The position numbers and the translations under genes are program-made. Positions 1 to 32,935 of a stretch of 36,570 nucleotides of DNA are shown here, one piece after another. Each line of letters starts with the position of its first letter. The first letter of the stretch is position 1. Source of the stretch: a virus. The stretch lies in the IMG/VR virus record IMGVR_UViG_3300037537_001252, positions 1 through 36,570 of that record, one strand, 5' to 3'. The notes beneath the pieces are model-generated. The model was not told the origin of the DNA. It searched no databases and worked only from the letters and a program-made list of their open reading frames with translations.

Positions 1-754
1 GAGGAATTATGTCTATATTATGAAAATTTAAATTCAACCATTTTTTATAATTTTTTTCAAATTTTATAAATTTAGTTCCATATCTTACAAATTCTGCAAC
101 TTCATGAACACCATCAATACTAATATTAAAATTAATATGTTTAAATCTTTTTAATTGTTCTATCCATTCTTTATTGGGAAAAACAGAATTATTTGTAACA
201 AGAAACAACTCAATATTTTCAGCATCTATTTTTTTAAATACATCAATATATCTTTTATCTAAAAATGGCTCGCCCCCTAAAATTTTTATTTCATTCAAAT
301 CCATGATTTTAAAATCTTCTTCATGAATTGTATTTTTTACATCTCGTCCTTTAAAAGTATAATAAGTTCTTTCTAATAACAGATCATCTTCATACCAAGA
401 AGAACTAAATTTCGTATTACAGTCTACACATTTATAATTACATTTATTACTTAATGCTAATTCTAATTCTTTTATTTTTGGATTATCGATATATTCTTGT
501 TTATATCTTTCATTAAAACGTTGTCTGTAACTATGCTTTCCTAAAGATTCGTCCCTATAACATTTATCACAACCTTTTATTTTTTCATCTTTCAGCATCT
601 TTTGTCTAAAGTCGTTATTCTCTTTACTATTGAATGCTTCATGTATAGAATCGTATTCAGAATAAATGTTATCAGAAAACATACAACAGGGATTGAATTC
701 ACCAAAAGAATTTCTTTGAATGTGTACAAAAGGGGCCATGCAAAAATGTTTCAT
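1..754 (-). CDS. Radical SAM protein with N-terminal twitch-like domain (3' end cut by window)
   Basis: About 251 codons are visible and the C-terminus runs off the left edge. An N-terminal cysteine module (C5, then CC at 23-24, then CxxC at 62-65) precedes a radical SAM core with CNYKCVDC (C105, C109, C112), a CX3CX2C motif that binds the [4Fe-4S] cluster for S-adenosylmethionine cleavage. GGEP follows, then a TNNS and an SIDG segment as in other radical SAM barrels. This order matches the twitch domain-containing radical SAM group seen in marine phages. The start is the ATG at 752-754, which overlaps the stop of the preceding gene as ATGA, suggesting coupled translation. Four similar proteins occur further upstream in the same island. 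The substrate is unknown; the family assignment is firm, the reaction is not. Confidence 0.85.
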   Translation of the reverse strand, partial: MKHFCMAPFVHIQRNSFGEFNPCCMFSDNIYSEYDSIHEAFNSKENNDFRQKMLKDEKIKGCDKCYRDESLGKHSYRQRFNERYKQEYIDNPKIKELELALSNKCNYKCVDCNTKFSSSWYEDDLLLERTYYTFKGRDVKNTIHEEDFKIMDLNEIKILGGEPFLDKRYIDVFKKIDAENIELFLVTNNSVFPNKEWIEQLKRFKHINFNISIDGVHEVAEFVRYGTKFIKFEKNYKKWLNLNFHNIDIIP

Positions 755-1887
755 AACACACTATTCTGAAATAATTTTTTAATTGTTAAATCTGCTTCCC
801 AATTACTTTCTTTCTGGGACACCTTTTCATAATTTAATTCATCTATTGTATGATTATTAAATAAATCATCAATATTTGTTTTAGATTTTGTTATACACAT
901 TCCACATCCACAAAATGTTTTCGGACATGTAATCATTGGAACTTTCTTTTGATATAAACTATCAGCAAGATCATCTATAATTTTATCAAATTCTGATATT
1001 TTACCAAGAGGTGCAACCTCCCCATTTAAATTCACTCCACATGTTTGATGAGTATAAACAACATCTGCTTCTGAATTTAAAAAGAGAAAGTACCAATTAA
1101 CCATACAATTCCAACCCAAAAAATTAGTATCAGGCAAAAAATAACTGTCCACACCGTCTGCTTTGAAACATCTTCCTCCACAACACGGTCTTCCCAATCC
1201 TTTTTGTGTGTTTCCTTCTTCTGTGACATTTTGTCCTCTCTGCTTCCAATAATTACGAAACCATTTCATTTGATCTCTAGTATAACGGTGAGTGTATCCC
1301 AATTCAATTGATTTTTTATCATCTGGATGATCATCTCCTATAATTCTCGGAACATATTCTACACTATTTTTTTCTAAAGTTTCACATACATCTATACACT
1401 CTTCAAAATAATCTTTATGAAACATTACATTACATTTATATTTTTCTCTTAAAACTATTGCATTTGATACTACTTGTTTTTTCTGTTTTGTTGTTGATTC
1501 ACAATGATATGATAACGTACCACCTGTAGTCAAAGACAATACTTTATCTAATACAGAATTTTTGAACCAACCATTGGTCGTAAGACCTCTACTAAATTCG
1601 GGATATTCATTTTTTGCATATTTTAAAAACTTAAAAAAATCAGGATGAACTGTCGGCTCTCCTCCTGTAAAACTCAATTTTTTTAGGGCAGGTTTCTTTC
1701 TAAATGTGTCATAAAGCAACGCATATTCTGCGACACTATTCATAGATTTACATAAAGTTTCATAACTTACAAATGATGATGTTTTATTGTTTCTATGAGG
1801 AGGACAATATGTACATGCATAAGAACATCTTCTACCGAGATCCCATATAATTTGATATCGATTTGATTGATCTTCTATATTATACAT
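751..1887 (-). CDS. Radical SAM protein with C-terminal cysteine cluster
   Basis: A 378-residue protein. CSYACTYC (C21, C25, C28) is the CX3CX2C radical SAM motif and GGEP lies at 75-78. The C-terminal third is rich in cysteines (RPCCGGRC, then CPKTFCGCGMC), which looks like a SPASM-type region for auxiliary Fe-S clusters. A longer reading to a GTG at 1977 is possible but would overlap the preceding gene by almost 100 bases. The ATG at 1885-1887 gives an 8-base overlap (ATGTATAA) and places the motif at a normal distance from the N-terminus, so I chose it. It follows the QueC-like ATPase directly, so the two may share a pathway. It does not look like QueE: it is much longer and has a standard CX3CX2C. 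The substrate is unknown. Confidence 0.82.
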   Translation of the reverse strand: MYNIEDQSNRYQIIWDLGRRCSYACTYCPPHRNNKTSSFVSYETLCKSMNSVAEYALLYDTFRKKPALKKLSFTGGEPTVHPDFFKFLKYAKNEYPEFSRGLTTNGWFKNSVLDKVLSLTTGGTLSYHCESTTKQKKQVVSNAIVLREKYKCNVMFHKDYFEECIDVCETLEKNSVEYVPRIIGDDHPDDKKSIELGYTHRYTRDQMKWFRNYWKQRGQNVTEEGNTQKGLGRPCCGGRCFKADGVDSYFLPDTNFLGWNCMVNWYFLFLNSEADVVYTHQTCGVNLNGEVAPLGKISEFDKIIDDLADSLYQKKVPMITCPKTFCGCGMCITKSKTNIDDLFNNHTIDELNYEKVSQKESNWEADLTIKKLFQNSVL

Positions 1888-2632
1888 ATCTACCAAATGC
1901 CCAATATCGTTCCTCACACCACCAACACTTTTCACAATGTTGTGTATGTGTATTAGTAAGTTCGGCTGATCCTTCACAACTGTACGTAAGAGGAAATAAT
2001 GTATCGGTTATATTATATTGTTTATACAATTCTGCCAATTGTTTTTTATCTATATCAAAAAACGGATTAATATAAAAACGAACACCATTTTCTGTTTTTA
2101 AAGGTCTATCAGCATCATCATCTCTACTACGTTCTTTATTTTTTGATATTGTATTATCATTGGAAGGAGGGTTGCGAGTTATCCCAGAATATAATATTTG
2201 AAATAAATTATCTCTAAAGTTTTGATCATCTCTATCCCAAAATTCTTTTATTTCTCGTTGATATTCATCATCAATAGGCGGATAATATACAATATGATCA
2301 TTCATTTTAACATTCAATTCCTCTTCAATCCAATCTATAACATTTCCTGCATATATTGGATTATTAGGTCTTCCTCTCCTAACAGATAAAGGTTGAATTT
2401 TTATATTTAAATTTTCGTCTTTAATTTTTTTAGCAAGTAAATATGCTAACATTGAACTGTCAGCCCCACCAGACATCCAAATACCTATGAATTTTACGAA
2501 CTGTTGTTCATAACATTCATCACCATAATGTCTAATATTACGCCAAATATCATCATTTTTAAATTTTGAATATAATTCTTCAATGTATATCTGTTTCAAT
2601 CTACGTATTGTTTTAGGAATTTCAATTTGCAT
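1880..2632 (-). CDS. QueC-like PP-loop ATPase
   Basis: A 250-residue protein with the PP-loop signature SGGADSS (54-60), which binds ATP pyrophosphate in enzymes that adenylate a carbonyl or carboxylate. The C-terminus carries C219, C233, C236 and C239 followed by an R-Y-W-A-F stretch, close in order to the zinc-binding end of QueC (7-cyano-7-deazaguanine synthase), though the first cysteine is further from the CxxCxxC than in typical QueC. QueC turns 7-carboxy-7-deazaguanine into preQ0, and phages use this chemistry for DNA deazaguanine modification. No QueD, QueE, FolE or DpdA is visible here, so an amide- or nitrile-forming step on another substrate is equally possible. It sits between two radical SAM genes with overlaps of 8 and 11 bases. 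Confidence 0.75.
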   Translation of the reverse strand: MQIEIPKTIRRLKQIYIEELYSKFKNDDIWRNIRHYGDECYEQQFVKFIGIWMSGGADSSMLAYLLAKKIKDENLNIKIQPLSVRRGRPNNPIYAGNVIDWIEEELNVKMNDHIVYYPPIDDEYQREIKEFWDRDDQNFRDNLFQILYSGITRNPPSNDNTISKNKERSRDDDADRPLKTENGVRFYINPFFDIDKKQLAELYKQYNITDTLFPLTYSCEGSAELTNTHTQHCEKCWWCEERYWAFGRYV

Positions 2633-4052
2633 ACCACTCTAACCATTCCAAATCAGGAAATATTTTTATAAAATTTAAGTTTCTTTTCTCTGCAACAGTA
2701 AAACACCATTCAGCAGTTTCAGGCAATCTCTCAGACCAATCTTCAGAGTTCATAAAAGACACAAGACCTTCAAGTCTTTTTATACCATACGGCAATTCTC
2801 TCCACTCTTTGAAGTCGATATTTTCGTCCTCAACCCCATTACATTTTTTCCAATTCTCTTCAAGCCAGGGATAAAACTCTTCAAATTTCTCAGTTACTTC
2901 TCGTTTAAACCATTTCGGTAATACTTTACAATTTAACTGTGGAGGCCAATATGCAAGATGCAAATCAATCATGCCTGCACCAGCAGGAAACTTATTAAGC
3001 AGTTTCCAATCTGTTTCTAATTTCCAACTTATAAATTCTGGCAAATAAAAAATATTAAGAGCAGTAATTGTAGTTGCTGTGGTTAATCTAAGATTACCAT
3101 GAGGATAATCATCTAACACATGCATCTGTTTTACAATTCTCTTCCAACGAGAAGGATATCGAATAAAATGATTTTTGTCTCCGTATGAATCTACACTAAA
3201 ATGAAAAATAACATTCTTAAATTCTTTCCAAAGATCAAACAAATTAGAATTCCATTCAAGCCCATTTGAATTATAACGAACTTCAATATCTTTCGCATAA
3301 CCCATTTCAATAATACGTTCAAGCACCATATAATGCTCTTTCATTATTAATGCTTCGCCGCCGGCCCAATATAGTTGTTTAAGAGTGGGAACTTGTGTCC
3401 AAAACTCATCCCAAAATGTAGGATTCGATTTATGCCATGCATATGATCCACCAGATCGAGCTAATTTTCCAGTATCTTTTTCCCAAACTTGAGAAGCACG
3501 TAATCTTTCATTTTTTAATGTAGGAAATATTTCTTTATATTCTTTTACCCACTTGGAAGAATCATGAGGACTACACATAACACATGCAAGTTGACATTTA
3601 CTACCAAGCCGAAGATCAATGTATCGTACTTTTGGAGGAACACTTCCATCCTCTGAAGTTTCTCCTATAACTTCTTCAAGTCCAAGTTCATGAACCCATT
3701 TAGCGGTTTCCCATTGTCTTTTTGAACGATGTCCAGCATCTTCCTCCTTAAAACATTTTAAACAAGATGCAGGACGCTCTCCTCTAAGCATCATTCTTCG
3801 CACGGACTTCATATATTCATTATTCCATGCATCTAGTAAACTTGTTGTTGCTAAATTGGCAGGCTTTCCATCATCTCTTCTAAGAACCCCTGCTTCGGGT
3901 ATAGTTTTTACTGTTGAATCCTTATCTTGAACAGAAGAAGCATTCGCAGTACAACATACACGCATATGTCCATTTGGTCTTGTAGAAATATGCATCCAAG
4001 GCAGGGCACAAAATGTACAAGAGGGCAAATTTTCAGGATCTTTATCGATCAT
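2622..4052 (-). CDS. Radical SAM protein with N-terminal twitch-like domain
   Basis: A 476-residue protein. The N-terminus has CTFC (12-15), CC (33-34) and CLKC (97-100), the cysteine module typical of the twitch-first radical SAM group. The core motif is CQLACVMC (C153, C157, C160), followed by an AGGEA segment in place of GGEP and an RYNSNG strand. The middle insertion is tryptophan-rich. It is the longest of the five proteins of this type in the window. It overlaps the oxygenase gene upstream and the QueC-like gene downstream by 11 bases each. The substrate is unknown; the modified GGEP motif is conservative and should still bind SAM. Confidence 0.87.
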   Translation of the reverse strand: MIDKDPENLPSCTFCALPWMHISTRPNGHMRVCCTANASSVQDKDSTVKTIPEAGVLRRDDGKPANLATTSLLDAWNNEYMKSVRRMMLRGERPASCLKCFKEEDAGHRSKRQWETAKWVHELGLEEVIGETSEDGSVPPKVRYIDLRLGSKCQLACVMCSPHDSSKWVKEYKEIFPTLKNERLRASQVWEKDTGKLARSGGSYAWHKSNPTFWDEFWTQVPTLKQLYWAGGEALIMKEHYMVLERIIEMGYAKDIEVRYNSNGLEWNSNLFDLWKEFKNVIFHFSVDSYGDKNHFIRYPSRWKRIVKQMHVLDDYPHGNLRLTTATTITALNIFYLPEFISWKLETDWKLLNKFPAGAGMIDLHLAYWPPQLNCKVLPKWFKREVTEKFEEFYPWLEENWKKCNGVEDENIDFKEWRELPYGIKRLEGLVSFMNSEDWSERLPETAEWCFTVAEKRNLNFIKIFPDLEWLEWYAN

Positions 4053-4566
4053 AACAATCTTCTATATTTCTCCAAGTATTGTCAACATAATTTACAACCA
4101 CAGTTCGTCTAATATTCATATTAATTTTTTTAACAGAATGTTTCCAACTTTCAGTATCATAAGTATCTTTTAAATCAGGATAAAAATGAACTGCTCTATT
4201 AGGAATAAAACGAACACGCTTCAATTCATGTGGATAGTGAAAAATTGTTCCATTATTTTCTTGACCTTCAAAATAAATTACTGTAACTTCTCTTTTTGCA
4301 GAATGATCAGAATGGGGTTTCAACCAAAAACCATTCACATCATTACCTATTTCTATTTTTCTTCTATAATCATTTTTATAAGGAAATTTAGAAAGTATAA
4401 GATCAACAAGTTCAGAATCTTCAGTTAAATATTGTCTAACTTTACCATAAGAACATCTTTTTCCATCATAATTTTCTGGAACTTGATTAATAGGACATTC
4501 TCTAACCAATTCTAATATTCTATTAAATACTGCAAGAGTATAAAAATCATCTGTTACTTTATACAT
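4042..4566 (-). CDS. 2OG-Fe(II) oxygenase-like protein
   Basis: A 174-residue protein with the pattern of a small 2-oxoglutarate/Fe(II) dioxygenase. HSD at 85-87 supplies the first two iron ligands, H143 the third, and R153 or R154 the 2OG carboxylate contact just before the last strand. A strand reading EVTVIYFEG followed by a G-x-I-F-H-Y segment fits the double-stranded beta-helix core. Such enzymes hydroxylate, desaturate or cyclise small molecules and side chains. The gene overlaps the glycosyltransferase gene upstream and the radical SAM gene downstream, so all three are probably made together from the late transcript. The fold call rests on motif spacing only; the substrate is not predictable. 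Confidence 0.68.
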   Translation of the reverse strand: MYKVTDDFYTLAVFNRILELVRECPINQVPENYDGKRCSYGKVRQYLTEDSELVDLILSKFPYKNDYRRKIEIGNDVNGFWLKPHSDHSAKREVTVIYFEGQENNGTIFHYPHELKRVRFIPNRAVHFYPDLKDTYDTESWKHSVKKINMNIRRTVVVNYVDNTWRNIEDCYDR

Positions 4567-5153
4567 AACTCCTCAGGATAACCATTCGTATAATGTAATG
4601 CTTTTGCATTTTCAATATCATCATATTCTCCTACTAGAAAATTATATTCTAAAGGAATACTACCGACATTTTTTGTCCAACTAAATTGATGTAAATCTAA
4701 AGCAATTCCCTCATTGACAAATTTTATATCTAATTTTTTACAATCAGGATGAGAATTATTAAATAACATCAAAGAAGACCAATTTTTCTTATTGTATGTT
4801 AGTTGTTTTAGGTTTCCCCATTTTACATCATGTTTAGGAACATAATTGTGTTTACACACCAATACAGAATAGGAATCGTCACAGAAATTTTGTAACTCAA
4901 GGGGAGACACATTCCAATAAAAATCATCATCCATGAATACAGACCAACCTTTAAAATCTGATAGATAAGGAACTAAAAATCTACATACAGAAAAATCTGT
5001 AGAATCTGTAAATGATCTTTTTCGATACCACATATCATTAGAAAATAGTGAGGAACCTATTTTATGATAGTCGATTTGATATTCAAATAAACTTTTTATA
5101 CAATAATCAAAAACATGTGATCTCAATGAATCATAACCAACAAAAAATTTCAT
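4554..5153 (-). CDS. GT-A glycosyltransferase-like protein (GT8-like)
   Basis: A 199-residue protein opening with FFVGYDS, a first strand often seen in GT8-like and related nucleotide-sugar transferases. FMDDDF at 74-79 is the metal-binding DxD motif at the end of a predicted strand. The C-terminal HYTNG segment resembles the histidine-containing end of GT-A enzymes. At about 200 residues it is shorter than typical GT8 enzymes but close to phage examples. It is the second gene behind the late promoter, 3 bases from the nitroreductase gene, and overlaps the oxygenase gene by 13 bases. Donor and acceptor sugars are unknown. A host-surface or virion glycan is plausible but not shown. Confidence 0.7.
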   Translation of the reverse strand: MKFFVGYDSLRSHVFDYCIKSLFEYQIDYHKIGSSLFSNDMWYRKRSFTDSTDFSVCRFLVPYLSDFKGWSVFMDDDFYWNVSPLELQNFCDDSYSVLVCKHNYVPKHDVKWGNLKQLTYNKKNWSSLMLFNNSHPDCKKLDIKFVNEGIALDLHQFSWTKNVGSIPLEYNFLVGEYDDIENAKALHYTNGYPEELCIK

Positions 5154-5156
5154 TTT

Positions 5157-5798
5157 TTATTCATGTACAATAACTTCAATTTCTTTTTTAAGTGTAGGAA
5201 ATTTAAAATTTTTATCGACATGATGTTCTCTTCTATGTCTAGTAGGATCATCATATCCTATACCCATCAATAATAGAGTGGGTGCATCTAGTAACTCATT
5301 CAGTTTATCAGACTCAAAACACTTACAACACCCTGTTGAATAACCCAACATAGTAGAAGTAAGATTTACATATCCAGCCGCAATACCTACTGCCATCATT
5401 CTATCATCATGATTGATTTTTTCATCAATAACATCATTCTTTTCTCTTTGATGAATGTCTTCAGTATTCTCTGTAAATGCCAATAACAAATTACCTAAAA
5501 CTTGTGAATTTGTTTTATATTCTTCGTTCTCATGTTTTCCTGATTTAAATTCACCAGTATAATTATTATCTGCATGTATAGGACCAAATCCATTAGTTAA
5601 ATCATGAATTTTTTCAATCATCTTTCTATCGGTTATTGCATGTACTTTGTAATAAGGTAAATTTTGTTTACTGGGACACTGAGTTGCAGAAGTTAAAATT
5701 ACATTTATATCCTCTTTCGGTATATTTTTTGATAAATCCCAATTCCGTTGACATTTTTGAGATTTATATATAGATTTTTTTAACATTTGTTGAAACAT
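5157..5798 (-). CDS. Nitroreductase-family protein
   Basis: A 213-residue protein resembling the flavin-binding nitroreductase fold. The segment CPSKQNLPYY (41-50) corresponds to the PSxxNxQPW-type FMN-contacting motif near the N-terminus. A central helix (AVGIAAGYVNLTS) and the C-terminal strand LLLMGIGY followed by basic residues match the second half of the family. These enzymes use NAD(P)H to reduce nitro groups, quinones or enones, or oxidise azolines in peptide tailoring. It is the first gene after the late promoter and has the best ribosome binding site of the region (GAGGAA, 5 bases before the ATG). The reaction here is unknown. Confidence 0.75.
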   Translation of the reverse strand: MFQQMLKKSIYKSQKCQRNWDLSKNIPKEDINVILTSATQCPSKQNLPYYKVHAITDRKMIEKIHDLTNGFGPIHADNNYTGEFKSGKHENEEYKTNSQVLGNLLLAFTENTEDIHQREKNDVIDEKINHDDRMMAVGIAAGYVNLTSTMLGYSTGCCKCFESDKLNELLDAPTLLLMGIGYDDPTRHRREHHVDKNFKFPTLKKEIEVIVHE

Positions 5799-5803
5799 AA
5801 GGG

Positions 5804-5809
5804 TTCCTC
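5804..5809 (-). promoter_or_regulatory. Ribosome binding site of the nitroreductase gene
   Basis: GAGGAA on the minus strand lies 5 bases before the ATG at 5796-5798. It supports that start and shows the gene is translated independently, unlike the overlap-coupled genes around it. Confidence 0.75.
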
Positions 5810-5840: not shown

Positions 5841-5848
5841 TATTTATA
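5841..5848 (-). promoter_or_regulatory. T4-type late promoter
   Basis: The minus strand reads TATAAATA, the full consensus of T4 late promoters recognised by the phage sigma-like factor gp55 with the gp33 co-activator. It lies in the only real intergenic gap of the window (5799-5843) and overlaps the TAA stop of the radical SAM gene upstream. A leader of about 40 bases leads to a strong Shine-Dalgarno and the nitroreductase ATG. Two other exact copies exist in the window, but both are inside genes. I infer late expression of the genes from 5.8 kb down to the left edge. Confidence 0.72.
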
Positions 5849-7172
5849 CTCTCACTAGGTCTTCTTTGATTATTTGATAATTTTTAAAATATTGATTAAA
5901 ATCTTGTCCCCATATTATATCAGATTTTTTTCTATATATCAACCATCTATTGAAATGATTATAACTTATTTTAGTATTTTTTATATAGTTTACAATATAA
6001 TCTAACCATTTTTTAGCATCATTACCTTTTATCAAGTCCATTTTAGATTTCGCTTTTTTCTCCATGCGTTCAATCAATTTATAAGTTTTTCTTATATCTT
6101 CCATTGTTTCATCATAAAAATCATACATTATAAGAGAAGGATCCAAATATTGAGGTGTCTGCACAATGGAAGCATCAAAATTCAACCCCAATTCAAAAAA
6201 AGATTCAAATACATCATAAATATCAAACATTTGATATATTGAAGTCGTACAACTCACATCAACATATGTAAAATTATTATAATCTCTAAATTCTTTAATA
6301 TTTTTCTTTAACTTATCCCAGCTACCACCATGTCTAAAATAAGAATAAAAGGTTTTTCCAGCATCTGCTGATATTATAATAGTAGATTTTCCAAAAAAAG
6401 ATAAAACATCAGATAATTCTGTAACACTAAAATCAGCATTAAAATTTGTATGAAATGAAAGATGTATATTTTTAGCATTAGGATGTTCTGCTAATTTTCT
6501 AAGCGTTGGAAAAAATTGTTTTTGATACAATACTTCTCCTCCAGCAACATCCACATAAGCCAAATTAGGAAAATTCTCATTTAAATCTTCCACTATTCTT
6601 AAAGCCTCATCAGTAGTCAATGACATTTCATTTCTATCGTTAGGACCATGTCTATGCTCTGTACCCAACAACTGTCTTAAATCATATAACTCATCTTCCT
6701 TATCTGGAACATAATTTTTTAATTTTTTTGTCCAACCCGATGAATATACTTTCGAACAATGCAAACATGAAAAATTACATGCTGTACTAAATCTAAATTC
6801 AACATGCCGCAATCCTTCAAAAGTAACAGAATGGTCTGTATTATCATAACAATCTAGTAATTTTTTACTTGCTATTTCTCTATCATCTTCTACCTTATTC
6901 TTACAAAAATAATTATCTGTATCTAATACATAATCAAATCTCATAGACTTTAAGTCAGATTTTTCCATTTCTTCACAAGTAGAACATCCTTGAGGCCATT
7001 GATCTTCATGTAATAATTTCCTCATGTCTCTAAAATTTTTGTGATTAAAAATTTTAGATGGCAATATTGTCTCATGAGCATAAACTAACTGATCTGCTTG
7101 TCTAGGGCATGTTGATATAACACCATTTTTATAATTTATTCCCCCAAGAGCATATAAACAATTTTTACTCAT
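5844..7172 (-). CDS. Radical SAM protein with N-terminal twitch-like domain
   Basis: A 442-residue protein with an N-terminal cysteine module (C5, C22, CSTC at 63-66) and the radical SAM motif CNFSCLHC (C132, C136, C139). AGGEV stands where GGEP is usual, and an HTNFNAD strand follows. The C-terminal 130 residues are lysine- and tyrosine-rich, without a cysteine cluster. It belongs to the same group as the proteins at 1-754, 2622-4052, 17386-18576 and 23207-24058. Its start overlaps the stop of an amidinotransferase gene (ATGA), so the two are probably coupled. Its stop codon forms part of the late promoter. The substrate is unknown. Confidence 0.87.
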   Translation of the reverse strand: MSKNCLYALGGINYKNGVISTCPRQADQLVYAHETILPSKIFNHKNFRDMRKLLHEDQWPQGCSTCEEMEKSDLKSMRFDYVLDTDNYFCKNKVEDDREIASKKLLDCYDNTDHSVTFEGLRHVEFRFSTACNFSCLHCSKVYSSGWTKKLKNYVPDKEDELYDLRQLLGTEHRHGPNDRNEMSLTTDEALRIVEDLNENFPNLAYVDVAGGEVLYQKQFFPTLRKLAEHPNAKNIHLSFHTNFNADFSVTELSDVLSFFGKSTIIISADAGKTFYSYFRHGGSWDKLKKNIKEFRDYNNFTYVDVSCTTSIYQMFDIYDVFESFFELGLNFDASIVQTPQYLDPSLIMYDFYDETMEDIRKTYKLIERMEKKAKSKMDLIKGNDAKKWLDYIVNYIKNTKISYNHFNRWLIYRKKSDIIWGQDFNQYFKNYQIIKEDLVRV

Positions 7173-8164: not shown

Positions 8165-8652
8165 CTTCTTATCTCATATTTGTTAATGAAATTTAATCTT
8201 ACAGGATCTATTTGCCACATAATATTTTTACTTAATATTTTTGAATTTTTAAAGTTTTCATTTGAAATTTTCAAATCTTGTGTGTATAAATTACTTCCAA
8301 TACTATAAAAAAATATACCGTGAGGGCTTAATATTAAAGAAGAAATATTATAATCTACTTCAGCAAGAGCAATAGTTCGGTTATAATGCCATTGCATTTC
8401 TTTATCAAATGCATCATCTATTTTTTCTGGAAGATCCGACCATATCCAAGTATGATCAGACTCTCCAATTCGGTTTGTTATTACTTTCTTTATCAGAGGC
8501 CTATATGTAGAAACATAAAATTTATATTCTTTTTCATTATTAAATTTCTCAATAGAAAAAAATTCTATACTATCACCTTTATTCCTCATTCTAAGATCAT
8601 AGTCTATACCATAATTATAATTATTTTTATGTAAAATTTTATCTAAAATCAT
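8161..8652 (-). CDS. Hypothetical protein
   Basis: A 163-residue protein that I do not recognise. It has no signal peptide or membrane segment. It is rich in Tyr, Ile and Asn, with alternating strand-like segments (KEYKFYVSTY, SSLILSPHGIFFYS), which suggests a mostly beta fold. It has only 4-base overlaps with the genes on both sides (amidinotransferase downstream, small acidic protein upstream), so it is probably translated with them. No catalytic motif can be named. Confidence 0.6.
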   Translation of the reverse strand: MILDKILHKNNYNYGIDYDLRMRNKGDSIEFFSIEKFNNEKEYKFYVSTYRPLIKKVITNRIGESDHTWIWSDLPEKIDDAFDKEMQWHYNRTIALAEVDYNISSLILSPHGIFFYSIGSNLYTQDLKISNENFKNSKILSKNIMWQIDPVRLNFINKYEIRR

Positions 8653-11292: not shown

Positions 11293-11297
11293 TCCTT
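11293..11297 (-). promoter_or_regulatory. Ribosome binding site of the small acidic protein gene
   Basis: AAGGA on the minus strand is placed 5 bases before the ATG at 11285-11287 and overlaps the stop codon of the gene upstream. It supports the chosen start. Confidence 0.6.
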
Positions 11298-26689: not shown

Positions 26690-27335
26690 AGATAAATCCT
26701 AATTTATTCTCAACTAAGTATTGATCATTAATTTTTGAATGATATGCTTCGTTTAATTTTAAAAATTTAAATTCAAAATCATCATAAAAAAAATCATTTT
26801 TATTATCCAACATACTTATTATACAATCACATAAAATATCATGATTTATCCACGATAAATGATTCACTCTCTTATCCCACCTTCGTTTATAGATTTCTTC
26901 CAGATTAGATAAAATTTCATAATATGATATATTATACAAGGATAATGGAAATGTATATTCATGTTTAAATGCCTCATTATAATATACATGAAAAACCAAA
27001 GTTTTTGCATTTAATGAATGTATAAAATTTTGATTTTTTAAATTAATTTCAACTAAGTCATTTGAGGGAACATCATGAAAAGAAAGAACAACAATAATTA
27101 AATCATCTTTTGAAAAGTTTTCTTTTCGTATTAGATTCATGGAGTACATTGGCCCCTTGGCAATTTTACCATAATTGTAGTATTCACGAGGATTAATTTT
27201 AAATCTTAACTGTTCACTCCATAATTTTGGCAAATCTTCTTGCGGTATAAAATGATTTCGAATTCCTCCTTTATGAGTATTCAATCTTTTGTTATCTGCA
27301 AAAGAATCTCCAAATATAAACAATCTATCATACAT
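26682..27335 (-). CDS. SGNH hydrolase-like protein (copy 2 of 3)
   Basis: A 217-residue protein beginning with the strand RLFIFGDSFADN, where S11 is the block I serine. A Y-N-Y-G-K-I-A-K-G-P segment fits the block II glycine, and NHLSWINHDIL near residue 175 is in the position of the block V histidine region, although a clean D-x-x-H is not seen. It ends in K-L-G-F-I-Y-D, like the other two SGNH proteins. It abuts the amidinotransferase gene with no spacer (TAG followed by ATG). A role in adding or removing acyl groups is plausible; the changed block V makes hydrolysis uncertain. Confidence 0.62.
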   Translation of the reverse strand: MYDRLFIFGDSFADNKRLNTHKGGIRNHFIPQEDLPKLWSEQLRFKINPREYYNYGKIAKGPMYSMNLIRKENFSKDDLIIVVLSFHDVPSNDLVEINLKNQNFIHSLNAKTLVFHVYYNEAFKHEYTFPLSLYNISYYEILSNLEEIYKRRWDKRVNHLSWINHDILCDCIISMLDNKNDFFYDDFEFKFLKLNEAYHSKINDQYLVENKLGFIYD

Positions 27336-28349
27336 CTATACTCTTCTTAGGTCTAATGTAACACAATGAAAGCCTCCTCCTAATGTTCTAGCGTGTTTCA
27401 TAGACAAGGGTATACTTTCTATTTTGTATTGTTCTAAAATTTTTATTAATGGTTTTTGATTTTCATCAACAATAACTAAATTAGGATTAATGCTCAATAA
27501 ATTTAATCCAATTGAGTCGCTTGATATTCCAGAATCTTTAGAATCAGTTGAAATAATATCAGTAAAAAATATTTTTTCCCAATTGTCAAAAAATTTAGGA
27601 TAATTGTTTTGATTACATCTTAATCCATTTAATAATACAAGTCCTTTTCTTAAAGGAATTATTGTACTATCAAAATGTGCGCCCGAATATGCATCACGTT
27701 CAATGTGAATATTATATTCAGGAAACATTCTTTGTAACCACTCAGCACCTTTTTCATTTCCACTATTACTTATTTGAAAAATCAAATCATTATCAATTCT
27801 TATTACATTAGGAGCATCAAAAAGAATTTCATTATTCATCAATGTTGATTTTGACAAATCTGAAAAATCGAAACTGCTATCTTCAATAATTTGTTTTGGT
27901 GCAGAAAACCATTTCGCTCCATCATCAAACGCTCTTCGCAAAATTTTATTATAAGACCAAGTTTCAAACATTCTACTTCTCATCACGCTAGGAACTTCAA
28001 CAATATTATTTCCCAAAACCAAAAAAATATCTCTAGGACAATAATTATGCCAACCAGAACTTATCCATTTTGGGGTTTGAATTCGTTGATGATGTTGTAT
28101 TCTTTCTGGTCGATGAACTATAACTCCACAATCTTCCAATACTTCAGATAAAACATCAAGATCCTCATTTGCTTCTTCAAGAAGATCCTGATTATATGAT
28201 CCAACATGTTTTTGTATTTCTTCATTTGTCAGATTCGCATACATGAAATTTTTCATTGAAGGATCTACTGGTGGAATATGTGCAAAATCTGCACGTCCTA
28301 CAATTATTTCTTCAAGAGAATCCCAATCATTATGAGAATTAATTATCAC
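27336..28349 (-). CDS. Amidinotransferase (glycine/inosamine amidinotransferase family)
   Basis: A 337-residue protein with the full catalytic triad of arginine:X amidinotransferases: D178 in LFDAPN, H225 in GAHFDST and C329 in GGGFHCVT. Further family landmarks are W-D-S-L-E-E-I-I-V-G at the start, PRDIFLVLGN (105-114) and R-S-R-M-F-E-T-W. These are close to those of human and StrB1-type enzymes. The likely reaction moves the amidino group of arginine to an amine, giving ornithine and a guanidino product. The start is a GTG whose first two positions overlap the stop upstream (TAGTG). A StrG-like oxygenase gene lies directly upstream, which echoes streptomycin clusters where StrB1 and StrG coexist. 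Confidence 0.92.
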   Translation of the reverse strand: MIINSHNDWDSLEEIIVGRADFAHIPPVDPSMKNFMYANLTNEEIQKHVGSYNQDLLEEANEDLDVLSEVLEDCGVIVHRPERIQHHQRIQTPKWISSGWHNYCPRDIFLVLGNNIVEVPSVMRSRMFETWSYNKILRRAFDDGAKWFSAPKQIIEDSSFDFSDLSKSTLMNNEILFDAPNVIRIDNDLIFQISNSGNEKGAEWLQRMFPEYNIHIERDAYSGAHFDSTIIPLRKGLVLLNGLRCNQNNYPKFFDNWEKIFFTDIISTDSKDSGISSDSIGLNLLSINPNLVIVDENQKPLIKILEQYKIESIPLSMKHARTLGGGFHCVTLDLRRV

Positions 28350-29041
28350 TACATTTCCATATAATAATGTTTTGTACTATACCAATCTTTTTGTTTAAAT
28401 TTTTGACCCCGTTTTAAAACAATCTGATCTGTTAGTAAATTTTCGTTATAATCATCAACTGCTAATGCTTTAAAATCTAATGAACATCTAGTATGAGAAG
28501 ATTTATTATCTACTCTATTTCCGTGTACCACATCACTACTGAAAATCAACAGTTCATTCATACGCACCTCTCCTCTTCGACACAAATCATGTTCATCCCA
28601 ATAATAAAAATCATTTAAATGATCACACTCTGTAAGAGGTATCCAAAAATTACTTTCAAATTTTGGATGATAATATGGAGGTTGATCATCTAAATGCTTA
28701 TTATAGCCATCAGTAGTCTCTTCAACATACTTTACAGAATGCAATGCAGGAAATATTCTAAAAGAAGGAAGTTTTTGAATATAGATAGATTTATTATCAA
28801 AATATGGTTTAATAACTTCTTTAATGAATTCAATCCATAGCTTATTAAAACTAGAAGTCTTAATAACATCTGTATATGTCTTCGAAACCACTTCAAACTC
28901 TTCAGTTCCTCCAGCCATATCTGAAAATTCACGTTCAAAATGAATCTTTTTATGTAATTTAGTTAAATCTTCACCAAAATATTCCTGAAAAACATTAACA
29001 AAATTATATTTTTTGATATCGTATTCTATTGTTTCAATCAT
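28349..29041 (-). CDS. StrG-like 2OG-Fe(II)-type oxygenase
   Basis: A 230-residue protein resembling StrG of streptomycin clusters and the phytanoyl-CoA-dioxygenase-like group. IQKLPSFRIFPALHS (88-102) is the usual first strand pair, H116-L-D118 the first two iron ligands, SNFWIPLTE the middle strand, and H173 in VVHGN the third ligand. R185 in TRCSLDFKA fits the 2OG arginine. In the known family the function of StrG is itself unsettled. Here it is coupled to an amidinotransferase gene (1-base overlap) and to an SGNH gene (4-base overlap). A hydroxylation before or after amidino transfer is a reasonable guess. Confidence 0.76.
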   Translation of the reverse strand: MIETIEYDIKKYNFVNVFQEYFGEDLTKLHKKIHFEREFSDMAGGTEEFEVVSKTYTDVIKTSSFNKLWIEFIKEVIKPYFDNKSIYIQKLPSFRIFPALHSVKYVEETTDGYNKHLDDQPPYYHPKFESNFWIPLTECDHLNDFYYWDEHDLCRRGEVRMNELLIFSSDVVHGNRVDNKSSHTRCSLDFKALAVDDYNENLLTDQIVLKRGQKFKQKDWYSTKHYYMEM

Positions 29042-29844
29042 TCGTAAATAAATTTTCCTGTTTTTGTATCACGTTTTTTTCCAAAATTATAGGAATAACC
29101 TATATTTTCAGCAAAAGGAATAGGATTATAATCATTTTTAATGAATTTTTTTATATTCTCATATAAAACTGTATGATTTTCTTGTGAAAGATGATTTCTT
29201 CTATTGTCCACATAATCATAACCCTCATCTTCTAAATCAATAAATTCTTCATGAGAAATATGTCCTAATTCAACAGGATATAGATAAAAGTTTGGACTAT
29301 TAAGGTTTGCAATATCTAAAAAAGAACCCATTCTACTTAATATTTTTATACCAAAGGTACAAAACACAATTGTTTTCATATTCAACAATATAGAATTCAT
29401 ATAAAGAAATCCTACATTTTTAAAATTAGACCATTTCAACTCATCATGCATCGTTAAAAACGTAAAATCTATTTCACTTTTAAAGAATTCATAATATGCT
29501 TTTTCTTTCTTTAAAGAAGAGTCTTCGGCCCACCAACTCTTCTTTTTATCAAAATCCCAATTGACATGATTCATATCTTCAGGACCTATATTGGGAAAAT
29601 GAATTCTGTCTTCTCCACTCAACAAGAAAATAGTAATATAATCTTCTTTTCTTATTTCATTATCACTAATAAAATTATAATAGTCTTTAAAAGAATAATG
29701 GGGTCCTGTTCCAGATAAGGCATTGTTTATTATTTCATAATCAGATTCTAAAGATTCATACCACGTTGTCACCTTTTGATTTTCTTTTTTTCTTTCTTTG
29801 GGATCTGCAAAACTATCTCCAAATATTATTATCTTATTTTGCAT
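29038..29844 (-). CDS. SGNH hydrolase-like protein (copy 3 of 3)
   Basis: A 268-residue protein that opens with KIIIFGDSFADPKER (S11 is the block I serine). N-A-L-S-G-T-G matches block II. DNRRNHLSQENH near residue 210 is the likely block V region, with N-H-L-S as in the copy at 26682-27335 rather than D-x-x-H. It ends in T-G-K-F-I-Y-E, again sharing the tail seen in the other two copies. The ATG at 29842-29844 is preferred over the one at 29859 because the motif then starts at residue 4 and the overlap with the cysteine-rich gene falls to 16 bases. Function is unknown beyond the fold. Confidence 0.66.
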   Translation of the reverse strand: MQNKIIIFGDSFADPKERKKENQKVTTWYESLESDYEIINNALSGTGPHYSFKDYYNFISDNEIRKEDYITIFLLSGEDRIHFPNIGPEDMNHVNWDFDKKKSWWAEDSSLKKEKAYYEFFKSEIDFTFLTMHDELKWSNFKNVGFLYMNSILLNMKTIVFCTFGIKILSRMGSFLDIANLNSPNFYLYPVELGHISHEEFIDLEDEGYDYVDNRRNHLSQENHTVLYENIKKFIKNDYNPIPFAENIGYSYNFGKKRDTKTGKFIYE

Positions 29845-30206
29845 AAATGTCCACAACATTCAGGTAAGGTTTCTTCTTTTTTCCAAAATTCTGGCTTAAT
29901 ATGGTTTCTCCATGTTTTTAAAATATCTTTTAATTTATGTTTCTTTAAATTATTCCAGTCTTTATCCAAATTGTCTAATTTTTTATCAAAAAATGTTTTT
30001 TCTAATTGATGTTCTGCATGTAAGGTACAACATGGATATACAGAAAAATCGGATGCTATTTCAACTTCTCCCCAATCTTTAAATTGATGCCATCCTATAC
30101 AATAAACCAAATCTTTAAAATTTTCAGGTAAATTATGTTTGTTCTTATTTATTTTTTCTGGCAAATTTTCATACAAAGGGGGGGACATGTCTTTTCGTTC
30201 TTCCAT
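29829..30206 (-). CDS. Stand-alone SPASM/twitch-like cysteine-rich protein (second of a tandem pair)
   Basis: A 125-residue protein. After a 30-residue lysine- and asparagine-rich start come YCIGWHQ, VYPCCTLHAEHQ, a W-x-x-L-x-x-x-x-L-x-D-I-L helix and a C-terminal PECCGHLC. The order C, CC, helix, CC-x-x-x-C matches the gene just upstream (30149-30424) and resembles the auxiliary-cluster modules fused to radical SAM enzymes. No CX3CX2C radical SAM motif or barrel is present. It overlaps the upstream copy by 58 bases if the first ATG is used; an ATG at 30188 is also possible. It may provide Fe-S clusters in trans to the two short radical SAM proteins upstream, which lack such a domain. This role is inference. 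Confidence 0.65.
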   Translation of the reverse strand: MEERKDMSPPLYENLPEKINKNKHNLPENFKDLVYCIGWHQFKDWGEVEIASDFSVYPCCTLHAEHQLEKTFFDKKLDNLDKDWNNLKKHKLKDILKTWRNHIKPEFWKKEETLPECCGHLCKIR

Positions 30207-30424
30207 ATTTTTTCATTTAATGTTTTATTATATTCTTTAAGAATATTATTTAAAGAATTTGTTTTAAGATTGATATCTATATGACTAATAGCATCATCAG
30301 GTTTTCCGTTTGTCAGATGCTCTGTATAATAATGACAACATGGAAAAACATTTAAATTCAAATCAATTTCATATTGATGCCACTGCTGGGATCTATAATT
30401 ATAAAAATCACATTTTATTTGCAT
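30149..30424 (-). CDS. Stand-alone SPASM/twitch-like cysteine-rich protein (first of a tandem pair)
   Basis: A 91-residue protein with C5, then QQWHQYEIDLN, VFPCCHYYTEH (CC), an N-N-I-L-K-E-Y helix and a C-terminal CPPLCMKIC. It lines up over its whole length with the second half of the protein at 29829-30206, so the two are tandem duplicates. It has six cysteines in 91 residues, at positions expected for Fe-S ligands. It follows the radical SAM gene at 30415-31095 with a 10-base overlap. It could be an auxiliary-cluster subunit or a small cysteine-rich substrate of these enzymes. The sequence cannot decide between the two. Confidence 0.66.
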   Translation of the reverse strand: MQIKCDFYNYRSQQWHQYEIDLNLNVFPCCHYYTEHLTNGKPDDAISHIDINLKTNSLNNILKEYNKTLNEKIWKNEKTCPPLCMKICQKK

Positions 30425-31095
30425 CTGAAATTTTCTATATTATGGGCATTAAGTAAACCTTCACAGTTATTGATCTTTACATCATCAAGTTTATTAAATT
30501 CTCGACCATTAAATCTACACAATAAATCCAAATCATGTTTTTTTGCAAACTTTATTACATCAGATAATTCATGATAATTATGATTAAATATAGTATAATC
30601 CCATCTAGTATATGCATATTTTGCAGATTCAATCATATTTTTTAATGCAATATCAGTTCTTACATTAACTCTATATATTTGATTTATTTCATCTGTTAAT
30701 CCATCAATACCAAATACAAAATGAGTTTTTTTATGCTTTTCTAAAAAATTCTTCACCCAGTTTGGATTTCGTAAACCGCCATTTGTATAAATTTCAACTG
30801 AATCAAATACATCCTCCGCTATTGAAGCCAATTCACTCAAATCAGGATTCATTAAAGGATCACCTATTTCACCACAAAATTTTGCAACCAATTTGATATA
30901 TTGATTTTTCAGATGAAAATAAATGAAGTTTGTATTATGTGATATTAAAAATTTAAAGTCTTCAACTTTTAAATGTTTAATTACTAATTCTCTTTTCTGC
31001 TCTGTTGGAAATATTGTTCTAAAACAACTAGGACAACCAGCATTACAGTATGATGTGACTTCAAAATTAAATAAACAATCTTCATTATTTAACAT
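30415..31095 (-). CDS. Short radical SAM protein without auxiliary domain (second of a pair)
   Basis: A 226-residue protein with the motif CNAGCPSC (C17, C21, C24) only 16 residues from the start. GEIGDPLMNP takes the place of GGEP, followed by IYTNGG and FGIDGL. It ends just after the core barrel and has no SPASM or twitch domain. It is a paralog of the gene directly upstream (31095-31778): both share the C-N-A-x-C-P-S-C, G-E-x-G-D-P, T-N-G-G-(L/I)-R and I-D-G-L-x-D-(E/D) blocks. The start overlaps the upstream stop by one base. The pair is followed by two cysteine-rich mini-proteins that could complete it. Substrate unknown. Confidence 0.85.
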   Translation of the reverse strand: MLNNEDCLFNFEVTSYCNAGCPSCFRTIFPTEQKRELVIKHLKVEDFKFLISHNTNFIYFHLKNQYIKLVAKFCGEIGDPLMNPDLSELASIAEDVFDSVEIYTNGGLRNPNWVKNFLEKHKKTHFVFGIDGLTDEINQIYRVNVRTDIALKNMIESAKYAYTRWDYTIFNHNYHELSDVIKFAKKHDLDLLCRFNGREFNKLDDVKINNCEGLLNAHNIENFRCK

Positions 31096-31778
31096 TAGTT
31101 TGCCAATACTAATGTACTTGATCTAAATTTATTTTTTTCATATAAATCAACAACATTAGGTATTAATCTCTCTTTAATTCTAAATTTAGGTCGAGTATTT
31201 ATTTTTAAAACAACAGATATATTATATAATTTTGCAAAATCTAAAACTTCTGGTATTTCAAACCAATTATGTTCAAAAATAATATATTGCCAAGACACAT
31301 TTCTACATCCATATTTACTTTTAGAAAATGCAATCATATTGTCAATTGCTTTTTGAGTCTTCACTCTTCTTCTATATAATCCATTCAAATCATCATGTAA
31401 ACCATCTATTGAAAACATAATTTCCAAATTTCTATACGTATTTCCTACATCATTAAAAAATTTTGGAGTTCTTATGCCGCCATTAGTAATTACTTTTAAA
31501 TTTTTAAAAATTTTCACACCAAGGTCAATAAAAGAATTTACATGTGGATGAACCATGGGGTCTCCCAATTCACCCTCATATGTTACATATTTGTTTGTAA
31601 ATAAATCAATATCTCTTTCGATAATAAATTTAAACATATCAAAATCCATATGAATTTGATTTAATCCTGGGTGTAGAGGTTCGTTAGGAATATCAATTGG
31701 ATTGTTATGACTTTCATATCTTTTACAAGAAGGACATGCGGCATTGCAATAACTGCTTATTGTAAAATCATAATCCAT
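31095..31778 (-). CDS. Short radical SAM protein without auxiliary domain (first of a pair)
   Basis: A 227-residue protein with CNAACPSC (C11, C15, C18), GELGDPMVHP, VITNGG and FSIDGL. It has no C-terminal cysteine cluster and stops shortly after the core. It is a tandem paralog of the following gene, with the same modified GGEP. Two similar enzymes side by side could form a heterodimer or act on successive positions of one substrate. It starts one base into the stop of the glycosyltransferase-like gene upstream. Fold and cofactor are secure; the reaction is not known. Confidence 0.85.
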   Translation of the reverse strand: MDYDFTISSYCNAACPSCKRYESHNNPIDIPNEPLHPGLNQIHMDFDMFKFIIERDIDLFTNKYVTYEGELGDPMVHPHVNSFIDLGVKIFKNLKVITNGGIRTPKFFNDVGNTYRNLEIMFSIDGLHDDLNGLYRRRVKTQKAIDNMIAFSKSKYGCRNVSWQYIIFEHNWFEIPEVLDFAKLYNISVVLKINTRPKFRIKERLIPNVVDLYEKNKFRSSTLVLAN

Positions 31779-32935
31779 TAATTAAATCCTAAACAAATTT
31801 TTTTAATTATGTTAAACTCATCATTTGACAAATATTCCTTTTCATGAAAAGAAGAACTTAAATACAAATAATGAAGTAGATCATGTTTAATATAGGGCTC
31901 TTTAGTGGATTGGGAGCCTATTATTAAAGTGTTATTTATATTTGATATCCACCTAATGTAAATATTTCTATTATATATCAGCTTCTTTTTCAGTACAGTA
32001 AGTTTCTTCTCAAATTCAGAAACATCAAGGTCTAAATATCGTTCTATTTGAGTCCAAAATCCCTTTAATCTCGTTAACTTATTATCTTCTAAATCATAGT
32101 CATAATCAAAAATTTCATCATATAATTCAAATCCTAAATCTTGTAAATAATGATTGATGCCTTTTGCTCCAACCATAATAAAAGGCTGTTGAAACAAAAA
32201 TTGTTTCCATGTTTTTTCAGTAATATAAGTTGGACCATCTAAATAAGTTTCTAACACTACATCACAACAAGACTCAAAACTTTCTTTAGGAAGAAACGCA
32301 TTAAAAATATACTTATTGAGTTTTTTTCCATTTACAATAATTGTTTCTGAATCTTTGAATTTCTTACCCCCATCAACATCATTAATCCATATATCAGACA
32401 ATTTAATTTCTGTAAGTGTTCTATTTTCTATCTCAAATTTGTTTTCAGGATCATTATGAAATTGTGGAACTAAGGAATAATCATAATTCCGATGTTTATA
32501 ATAACGATTAACAGTTGATATTCTAGAAGTAGAAGGAGAACTTATTAATTGTATAAAATTTTTTTTCTTTTGAGTATTATTGAGATTGTTAATATTTTCG
32601 AGGCTAATATAATTCAGACTATCAAGCCTAACAGTAAACGGAAAATATAATACATTAAACTTTTTTTCAACACCTACTCTTTTACACCATTTTATATATC
32701 TGGTTTTAATATTCGCATCAGAACACAAATACCAGACATCAAATTCATGATCTTTTAATAGTTCATGTGCTTTTGAAAATAAAATATAACTAAAGCCTTC
32801 TTCGTCTAATGGCCATAATCTTGAACCTTCAGGTAAATCATATAATAAAATTGAATCTTTTTCATATTTCAACTCTTCTAGTATGGATAATAATTCTGGT
32901 TTTATTACAATCTCATCTAGATTAAATGATATCAT
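31778..32935 (-). CDS. Glycosyltransferase-like protein (copy 3 of 3)
   Basis: A 385-residue protein. T-E-K-T-W-K, PFIMVGAKG, then G-F-E-L-Y-D-E-I-F-D-Y-D-Y-D (238-281) form the block shared with the two other copies at 9022-10332 and 25826-26689. It is followed by an L-x-R helix and a lysine-rich C-terminal region. FIQLISSPSTSRIS (127-140) holds the preceding strand and S/N-x-x-x-R turn. The N-terminal 110 residues differ from the other copies. It overlaps the PD-(D/E)XK nuclease gene by 14 bases, so it is the first island gene after the phage core genes. GT-B-like function is moderately supported. Confidence 0.6.
   Translation of the reverse strand: MISFNLDEIVIKPELLSILEELKYEKDSILLYDLPEGSRLWPLDEEGFSYILFSKAHELLKDHEFDVWYLCSDANIKTRYIKWCKRVGVEKKFNVLYFPFTVRLDSLNYISLENINNLNNTQKKKNFIQLISSPSTSRISTVNRYYKHRNYDYSLVPQFHNDPENKFEIENRTLTEIKLSDIWINDVDGGKKFKDSETIIVNGKKLNKYIFNAFLPKESFESCCDVVLETYLDGPTYITEKTWKQFLFQQPFIMVGAKGINHYLQDLGFELYDEIFDYDYDLEDNKLTRLKGFWTQIERYLDLDVSEFEKKLTVLKKKLIYNRNIYIRWISNINNTLIIGSQSTKEPYIKHDLLHYLYLSSSFHEKEYLSNDEFNIIKKICLGFN

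Follow-up and report, generated by a model that had tools for sequence, protein, structure and literature searches.

The stretch of DNA analysed here, called the window throughout, is one entire IMG/VR virus record (IMGVR_UViG_3300037537_001252; 36,570 bases), and positions 1-32935 of it are occupied by an island of radical SAM and other tailoring enzymes (Table 1). GC content is ~26-33% across the whole window, and every gene lies on the minus strand and is read right to left. In that direction the order is g47, a T4 RNase H (g46), a DUF6433 protein (g45), a nucleotidyltransferase (g44), a zinc ribbon protein (g43) and a PD-(D/E)XK nuclease (g42), followed by the island itself, 41 genes running from g41 to g1. 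Genes overlap at 35 of the 41 junctions and are more than 10 bp apart at only one, in agreement with a preliminary description, made from the sequence alone, of one-strand and mostly overlap-coupled genes. Its overall observation, a phage tailoring island rich in radical SAM enzymes, is confirmed, but its coordinates proved too small, the window edge cutting through g1. Because the RNase H is 50% identical to that of Methylophilales phage Melnitz and 42% identical to that of Pelagibacter phage HTVC008M, the source record is a T4-like and probably marine phage.

Radical SAM proteins of the island

All ten proteins listed earlier as radical SAM enzymes (g1, g2, g4, g8, g19, g23, g30, g31, g39 and g40) carry CxxxCxxC in their translations, and eight score above the Pfam PF04055 cut-off. 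The g4 protein falls narrowly short (28.8 versus 29.5 bits) but reaches 398.9 bits against the NCBIfam family N_Twi_rSAM (NF033640); g40 is sub-threshold in Pfam (19.8 bits) and matches the g39-type profile at 3e-38. The curated N_Twi_rSAM cut-off of 170 bits is also reached by g1 (208 bits), g8 (199.8 bits) and g23 (217.5 bits); g30, at 169.0 bits, stays just below it, and the remaining five radical SAM proteins fall short of it. Overlooked earlier was that g31 is a B12-type radical SAM protein resembling KedN5 (below cut-off).

A second family, of ~350-amino-acid (aa) radical SAM/SPASM proteins, is linked to g4 in 65 of 82 g4 loci (80 viral and 2 from metagenome-assembled genomes, MAGs). Within the window it is split, g39 and g40 covering profile positions 10-199 and g38 positions 256-347, and the order g40-g39-g38-g37 is retained in L013-L015, L019 and L022. 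At 29829-31778, two radical SAM cores (g40, g39) and two SPASM-like modules (g38, g37) are thus four overlapping genes, in place of the one chain found elsewhere, and their order is conserved down to ~45% identity. The SPASM-like segment of this family aligns to the N-terminus in g1, g23 and g30, so that the SPASM half-domain may stand before, after or apart from the radical SAM core.

A PDB profile search with g4 returned no match. The structure model of g4 gave tied matches to enzymes acting on peptides (5why, 6efn) and on sugars or sugar nucleosides (DesII, 8hzv; BlsE, 7vob) and to viperin enzymes (Z 9-9.8, root-mean-square deviation [rmsd] 3.8-4.4, 201-238 residues aligned in those rows). 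In another record, a 1412-aa open reading frame (ORF) holds two N_Twi_rSAM domains in one chain and is followed by an 820-aa radical SAM protein (G055:C1 8669-12893; L244).

Recurrence of the island and distribution of g4

The nuclease g42 is followed by g41 or g40 in 12 other contigs, namely 10 of the 24 loci L004-L027 plus G019 and G020 (in L012 and L018, counted among these, the contig ends within g41). A chimera of phage and bacterial DNA, against which the preliminary description had asked for a check, is ruled out by this common junction. Its other check, for related phages that hold these genes singly and unlinked, found them clustered there, though content and order vary. The order from g47 to g31 is kept in L013, L014 and L015, where g33 is a stub, as is g32 in two of them. 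Each of six relatives has g4, g2 and a g1-type gene, and five of them have g3; a stable g4-g3-g2-g1 block was rejected, since G019 has it but other relatives differ in gene order and G022 yielded no g3.

The ratio of nonsynonymous to synonymous substitution rates (dN/dS) was 0.11-0.57 for orthologs in G019 (38 genes, 34 in the island) and 0.07-0.53 for those in G022 (24 genes). The island genes tested are under purifying selection; the test covered island genes other than g26, g30, g32 and g33, g26 having no ortholog above its 55% identity limit. For g24 and g28, values of 0.16-0.25 rule out decaying pseudogenes.

The window ends within the island. In G022, whose orthologs are 58-97% identical, the block runs ~22 kb past g1, with five more radical SAM matches, up to gp33-gp59-gp32, and from this the full island of the window's lineage would be near 55 kb, about 60% of it carried by the window. 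The interval from the nuclease to gp33-gp59-gp32 measures ~56 kb in G019, 49 kb in G028 and 41 kb in G031. The same interval is ~1.2 kb in cultured Melnitz and HTVC008M, in which the annotated late-transcription proteins were taken as gp33; cultured relatives that lack the island have SAR11 and OM43 as hosts. Recurrence, shared junctions, purifying selection and this "empty" site in cultured relatives are the reasons for which we regard the region as a phage-borne island of biosynthetic type; that part of the earlier interpretation stands, its product having been left open.

By its distribution, g4 is a hallmark of the module. It is 80-95% identical in six relatives, including G028, whose RNase H best matches Melnitz at 48%. 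Scanning for g4 relatives gave 396 viral contigs, 80 of them retained, and 50,697 phage records gave only three partial matches, at 28-29% identity. Among 84,980 species genomes, a pattern scan with two peptide patterns, present in only 16 of 50 g4 rows, found g4 on two MAG contigs; one carries gp23 and the other has 13 radical SAM-motif ORFs within 21 kb. Profile searches of 400 genomes of one phylum gave a single match, on contig L154, which carries gp23, and those of 396 genomes of another phylum gave contig L155 plus, in a different genome, a partial match of 94 bits. L155 has no gp23 match and 13 radical SAM-motif ORFs in the 21 kb examined. Filed in Chloroflexi and Acidimicrobiaceae MAGs, L154 and L155 look like phage contigs, with 12-13 such ORFs each. 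Absence of g4 from cells is accordingly a limited claim, the profile searches having covered two phyla, neither of them Pseudomonadota.

N_Twi_rSAM was matched 7 to 23 times, at E <= 0.001 and not always over the cut-off, in all 16 records or MAGs tested. PF04055 matches numbered 12 in G001, 13 in G019, 19 in G020, 17 in G021, 11 in G022, 16 in G028, 15 in G031 and 16 in G040; there were none in 9 of 18 and 3 of 23 records of the two scans. Genes for Fe-S supply are found in 8 of 25 virus records (A-type carriers, PF01521, in 6; IscU, PF01592, in 4), and none was found in the window, G001, G019-G022 or G028.

Two genomic sites are used. One, bounded by the nuclease and gp33, holds the module in G028, G031 and G019, and its gp33 side is seen in G022. 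The other is seen in G046, where the module is flanked by a large protein encoded after the baseplate genes, taken as VrlC by position alone, and by the neck genes gp13/gp14; G048 shows the first flank only, with tail-fibre matches directly before g4, and G055 the neck flank only. The same large protein is upstream of g4 in five more contigs (L273, L274, L277-L279). Gene neighbourhoods thus place the module of these other phages at the tail-side site named the host recognition cluster in the available passages of PMC7029224. The window's lineage lies elsewhere, its site running from the PD-(D/E)XK nuclease to gp33 rather than from VrlC to gp14. The module extends beyond T4-like genomes of ~150 kb: G050 (306,714 bp; L201/L248), a record of jumbo size, has gp23 and matches N_Twi_rSAM 16 times.

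The far end of the island, membrane proteins and a promoter motif

In G019 and G022 the island ends with a giant protein (1137 and 1184 aa, the G022 protein being 81% identical). The G019 protein has GT2, GT4 and GT9 glycosyltransferase (GT) domains, and an 888-aa GT4-FkbM protein also lies at this end. Its last third matches TibC (PDB 4rb4/4rap) over 345 residues at 4e-66 (227 bits), and a C-x2-C-x13-C-x11-C finger is present there and kept in G022. Catalytic homology and a four-cysteine finger, the marks of the TibC/BAHT family, are therefore both found in the relatives' protein, and four further contigs match TibC. TibC is a protein O-heptosyltransferase that transfers heptose to Ser residues of protein. 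All six contigs L263-L268 (G019 and G022 included; L265 and L266 look identical) have the order gp33, TibC protein, GT4-FkbM protein and then, on the opposite strand, a Ser/Thr-rich protein and a partner. The Ser/Thr-rich protein, next but one to the TibC protein, has 24.6% Ser+Thr in G019, versus 12.0% over all ORFs. Its relatives follow baseplate genes in other phages, and relatives of it and of the partner occur in 19 and 20, respectively, of 80 g4 loci.

TibC-like domains at 34-42% identity were also seen in Microcystis phage Mel-JY01 (L253; PP395634.1, 4750-8430) and in three uncultured-phage records of 636-735 kb. In that cultured Microcystis phage, a protein annotated as a "structural protein" (26% Ser+Thr) is followed, after one small ORF, by an FkbM-TibC fusion; the annotated protein gave no match to the Ser/Thr-rich family.

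Transmembrane (TM) segments were predicted by a simple hydropathy scan (threshold 1.6) of island ORFs of at least 80 aa. None was found in the window (0/42, g42 included), G019 (0/62), G022 (0/46) or G021 (0/35), nor in G046 at 40-80 kb (0/43); G001 (1/34), G020 (1/56) and G028 (2/56) gave four ORFs scoring 1.62-1.65. Outside the island of G028, 12 of 118 ORFs have a predicted TM segment. As a control, E. coli K-12 proteins were put through the script, and its O-antigen polymerase and flippase were both flagged, as was one single-segment GT. A flippase, polymerase or exporter of the O-antigen or capsule kind is thus not predicted among the 42 window ORFs, which stop short of the island's far end. 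The near-absence of membrane proteins favours cytoplasmic protein glycosylation over lipid-linked synthesis of a surface glycan.

The motif TATAAATA, which we take to be a late promoter, precedes 7 of 46 structural genes, 10 of 216 other genes and 5 of 342 island ORFs.

What the island may make

From the families, conservation and location of the island genes we infer, tentatively, a phage-encoded line for tailoring a glycan, which would be heavily modified and most likely attached to a virion tail protein. We imagine that sugars are made and transferred in the cytoplasm of the infected cell by g18, g44, the GT-like proteins g41, g12 and g32 and the large GTs beyond the window, and that they are decorated with amidino (g9, g34), carbamoyl (g27), amino (g17, g28), methyl (g31) and hydroxyl groups (the 2-oxoglutarate [2OG] enzymes), perhaps also with sulfo and halo groups. 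The N-twitch/SPASM radical SAM battery might perform C-H chemistry that is otherwise hard to achieve. A TibC-type O-heptosyltransferase domain would start a Ser/Thr-linked chain on a tail-type protein, with the nearby Ser/Thr-rich protein as the candidate, and later GTs would extend it. Virions would then carry an uncommon and rapidly evolving coat on their host-recognition apparatus. Surface decoration, a modified peptide and a modified base had all been left open by the preliminary description; we favour decoration attached to protein because of the TibC-type heptosyltransferase in relatives and the lack of membrane proteins. It is possible, if rather doubtful, that g4 and its SPASM partner, together with many radical SAM and tailoring enzymes, define a phage-only post-translational glycosylation that places radical-modified glycans on the phages' own host-recognition proteins. 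With similar reserve, such virion modification and glycan chemistry, from T4-like to jumbo-size uncultured phages, may not have been described before in the literature searched.

Several observations weigh against glycan attachment to a tail protein. Neither the TibC domain nor the Ser/Thr-rich protein is encoded in the window; both were seen only in relatives. G028 and G031 have the radical SAM core, but TibC was not matched in G028, in the 100 kb searched of G031 or in the stretches examined of 11 of 11 contigs with the Ser/Thr-rich protein (L269-L279); some contigs with that protein lack g4 in the stretch examined (e.g., L269-L271). We recognised no pathway to heptose or another nucleoside diphosphate-sugar in the window. 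Peptide, sugar and nucleotide radical SAM enzymes fit the g4 model equally well, and host flippases could serve a lipid-linked product. Finally, few island ORFs are preceded by TATAAATA, and production of the enzymes along with the virion proteins is therefore improbable.

That scarcity fits early action, as would be expected if the island instead remodelled a host surface glycan (lipopolysaccharide or its O-chain) during infection, for example to exclude rival phages, with export by a host flippase and ligase. Loci for surface glycans often contain GTs, cytidylyltransferases, carbamoyltransferases and SGNH proteins. O-chain modification has also been proposed for pelagimyophage GTs in the passages available from PMC7029224. 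However, with no predicted membrane protein the window's island encodes no flippase or polymerase, and TibC by its family acts on a protein acceptor; we consider host glycan remodelling unlikely. We judge it less likely still that the radical SAM battery modifies ribosomally synthesized peptides or makes a diffusible metabolite acting on host or competitors. SPASM/twitch enzymes often modify peptides, SkfB and CteB are among the enzymes that the g4 model resembles, and the adenylating, pyridoxal phosphate (PLP) and amidinotransferase genes, with the StrB1 match, resemble natural-product tailoring. But a search of peptides of 40 aa and longer found no conserved small precursor, g11/g14 relatives being limited to close relatives; no exporter is predicted; and the g4 model is just as near to the sugar enzyme DesII and to nucleotide-acting enzymes.

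Hypermodification of phage DNA seems very improbable. The g41 model is closest to T4 beta-glucosyltransferase, in a tie with many GTs, and g3 is QueC-like, but the 11 virus records examined, of which several are fragments, yielded no DpdA/TGT-type transglycosylase as used in 7-deazaguanine DNA modification. A PF00303 enzyme, which has the thymidylate-synthase fold of the hydroxymethylase in T4-type base glucosylation, was found in only 2 of 25 records, many of them fragments (G052, and G046 with an internal stop), and in none of the gp23-bearing G028, G031, G040, G049, G050, G054 and G055; these searches do not support DNA modification, and the module adjoins tail genes in other phages. Nor do we see much chance, though marginally more, that unlinked auxiliary genes have gathered in a hypervariable site and act separately on host metabolism or Fe-S economy. 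Gene content and order do differ between relatives, and the Fe-S supply genes are in line with the available passages of PMC5332604, which read a genome with 12 radical SAM genes as one of Fe-S cluster metabolism. Against this stand the overlapping genes, the shared g4, g3, g2 and g1-type genes and clustering at two separate sites.

Relation to known systems

The genome so read in PMC5332604, TARA_ERS488813_N000010, is a 183-kb uncultured marine T4-like genome and resembles ours in its many radical SAM genes; the passages available give no tailoring island, gene order or recurrence. The host recognition cluster of PMC7029224 is likewise a large hypervariable GT block in T4-like marine phage, with added radical SAM cassettes mentioned in the available text. 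Here, in contrast, there are ~10-19 radical SAM matches per record and an N-twitch hallmark, g4, and the window lineage uses the nuclease-gp33 site. Parts of other papers list radical SAM genes among Tasman Sea virus functions (PMC7150976) and a virus gene called ahbD with radical SAM domains and an uncertain function (PMC9301287); "radical SAM" does not occur in the available main text describing Melnitz (PMC9004378). Glycosylated virions are known from mycobacteriophages (Freeman et al. 2023, as cited in the available part of PMC12894461). In the Creative Commons-licensed PMC literature searched we found neither the island nor the g4 hallmark described, nor any TibC domain in a phage. The TibC/BAHT likeness extends over the C-terminal third of the relatives' giant GT and includes the finger cysteines, but the phage protein is fused to GT2 and GT4 domains.

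If our proposal is right, a chemical pathway seen neither in cultured phages nor, as far as tested, in cells takes up much of the genome of many uncultured phages (49 of the 167 kb of G028 and 41 of the 177 kb of G031). This would open up a pool of glycan and radical SAM chemistry and offer a cause, open to testing, for the ways in which such phages change recognition, escape antiphage sensing or keep out rivals; g4 would be a simple marker for finding a culturable member.

Other genes of the island

The g41 protein, the first of the island, gave a structure model (pLDDT 82.8) for which 49 of the 50 matches listed by VIA structure comparison are sugar transferases or synthases, the other being a trehalose-phosphatase N-terminal domain. 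The best among those listed, in tied rows, is T4 beta-glucosyltransferase (Z 10.1, rmsd 5.6, 256 aligned), which is also the sole Foldseek match under 0.001. As modelled, the g41 family has the fold of GT-B glycosyltransferases, which we take to be the class of sugar transferases it resembles; a PDB profile search with the family gave no match. Four GT-like proteins had been proposed, and g41, g12 and g32 form one such family, but g6 found no support.

The other tailoring enzymes largely agree with what had been described. Pfam bears out the carbamoyltransferase (g27), the cytidylyltransferase of CMP-sugar type (g18), the QueC-like ATPase (g3) and two PLP aminotransferases (g17 and a short DegT protein, g28). 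Two amidinotransferases hold up as well: g34 has StrB1, an inosamine-phosphate amidinotransferase, as its best PDB match, aligned over nearly its full length, but is phage-encoded and stands among glycan-type genes; g9 falls with it in PHROG 25854. The halogenase-like protein, g26, is Trp_halogenase-like by Pfam and matches the cyanophage flavin halogenase VirX1 (PDB 6qgm) at 98 bits, as it does other tryptophan halogenases. Flavin-dependent tryptophan halogenases have the motif WxWxIP; the aligned stretch of g26, which is 186 residues shorter than VirX1, reads WMWNVN. A Lys of g26 aligns with the Lys of 2wet in the PDB alignment, presumably the catalytic one. Some claims held in part: the AMP-binding match of g24 is partial, the sulfotransferase match of g16 is weak, and of six proposed 2OG oxygenases g13, g15 and g29 have Pfam matches, but g5, g20 and g35 were called from the HxD...H motif, just as the three SGNH hydrolases were from theirs. 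A nitroreductase (g7) and a MORN protein (g21) had been overlooked.

Table 1. Island genes and two neighbours, with positions in the window
Gene	Assignment	Position	Strand	Basis or remark
g1	N-twitch radical SAM, truncated at window edge; full relative 362 aa	2..754	-	NF033640 208 bits; G022 ortholog 93%
g2	Radical SAM	751..1977	-	PF04055; 77-92% identical in five relatives
g3	QueC-like PP-loop ATPase	1880..2632	-	PF06508 25.9 bits, cut-off 22
g4	Hallmark N-twitch radical SAM	2622..4052	-	NF033640 398.9 bits
g5	Probable 2OG-Fe(II) oxygenase, motif only	4042..4566	-	HxD...H; no Pfam match
g6	No known function (GT-like in preliminary description)	4554..5153	-	phrog_28018, unknown function
g7	Nitroreductase family	5157..5798	-	PF00881
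g8	N-twitch radical SAM	5844..7172	-	NF033640 199.8 bits
g9	Amidinotransferase family	7169..8164	-	phrog_25854, as g34
g10	No match in Pfam or PHROG scans	8161..8652	-	
g11	Small protein, paralog of g14	8649..9035	-	Close relatives only
g12	g41-family GT-like	9022..10332	-	
g13	2OG-Fe(II) oxygenase	10337..10930	-	PF03171 23.4 bits, cut-off 23
g14	Small protein, paralog of g11	10931..11287	-	
g15	Asp/Asn beta-hydroxylase-like	11296..11790	-	PF05118
g16	Weakly sulfotransferase-like	11771..12427	-	phrog_3347 2e-4
g17	Class I/II aminotransferase	12405..13358	-	PF00155
g18	Cytidylyltransferase (CMP-sugar type)	13348..14016	-	PF02348
g19	Radical SAM with C-terminal SPASM	14013..14834	-	PF04055, PF13186
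g20	Probable 2OG oxygenase, motif only	14831..15874	-	HxD...H
g21	MORN-repeat protein	15871..16710	-	PF02493
g22	SGNH-hydrolase-like, motif only	16691..17434	-	No Pfam match
g23	N-twitch radical SAM	17386..18576	-	NF033640 217.5 bits
g24	Short AMP-binding (adenylating) protein	18564..19181	-	PF00501 partial; 64-88% identical in five relatives
g25	No match in Pfam or PHROG scans	19169..19627	-	
g26	Compact tryptophan-halogenase-like flavoprotein	19596..20633	-	PF04820; PDB halogenases including VirX1
g27	NodU-type carbamoyltransferase	20630..21994	-	PF16861, PF02543
g28	Short DegT/DnrJ aminotransferase	21991..22581	-	PF01041
g29	2OG-Fe(II) oxygenase	22581..23210	-	PF13640
g30	Radical SAM, N-twitch type just under cut-off	23207..24058	-	NF033640 169 vs 170
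g31	B12-binding radical SAM, KedN5-like (below cut-off)	24055..25848	-	Profile matches
g32	g41-family GT-like	25826..26689	-	
g33	SGNH-hydrolase-like, paralog of g36	26682..27335	-	
g34	Amidinotransferase, closest solved StrB1 (1bwd)	27336..28349	-	1.8e-84, 287 bits
g35	Probable 2OG oxygenase, motif only	28349..29041	-	HxD...H
g36	SGNH-hydrolase-like, motif only	29038..29859	-	
g37	Stand-alone SPASM-like protein	29829..30206	-	PF13186 0.006, below cut-off; order conserved
g38	Stand-alone SPASM half of g39-type family	30149..30424	-	Profile 256-347 of 349, 9e-7
g39	Radical SAM core without SPASM	30415..31095	-	PF04055; profile 11-199 of 349
g40	Radical SAM core without SPASM	31095..31778	-	g39-type profile
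g41	GT-like by fold, first island gene	31778..32935	-	Model and fold match
g42	PD-(D/E)XK nuclease, island boundary	32922..33572	-	PF12705
g44	Nucleotidyltransferase just outside island, possible sugar activation	33816..34544	-	PF00483

The small paralogs g11 and g14 share a VHS...G.AKK stretch. A role as carrier protein or precursor was considered for them, and only nine matches were found among the loci examined, all in close relatives. The MORN-repeat protein g21 is unusual for a phage and is 77-94% identical in G019 and G022.

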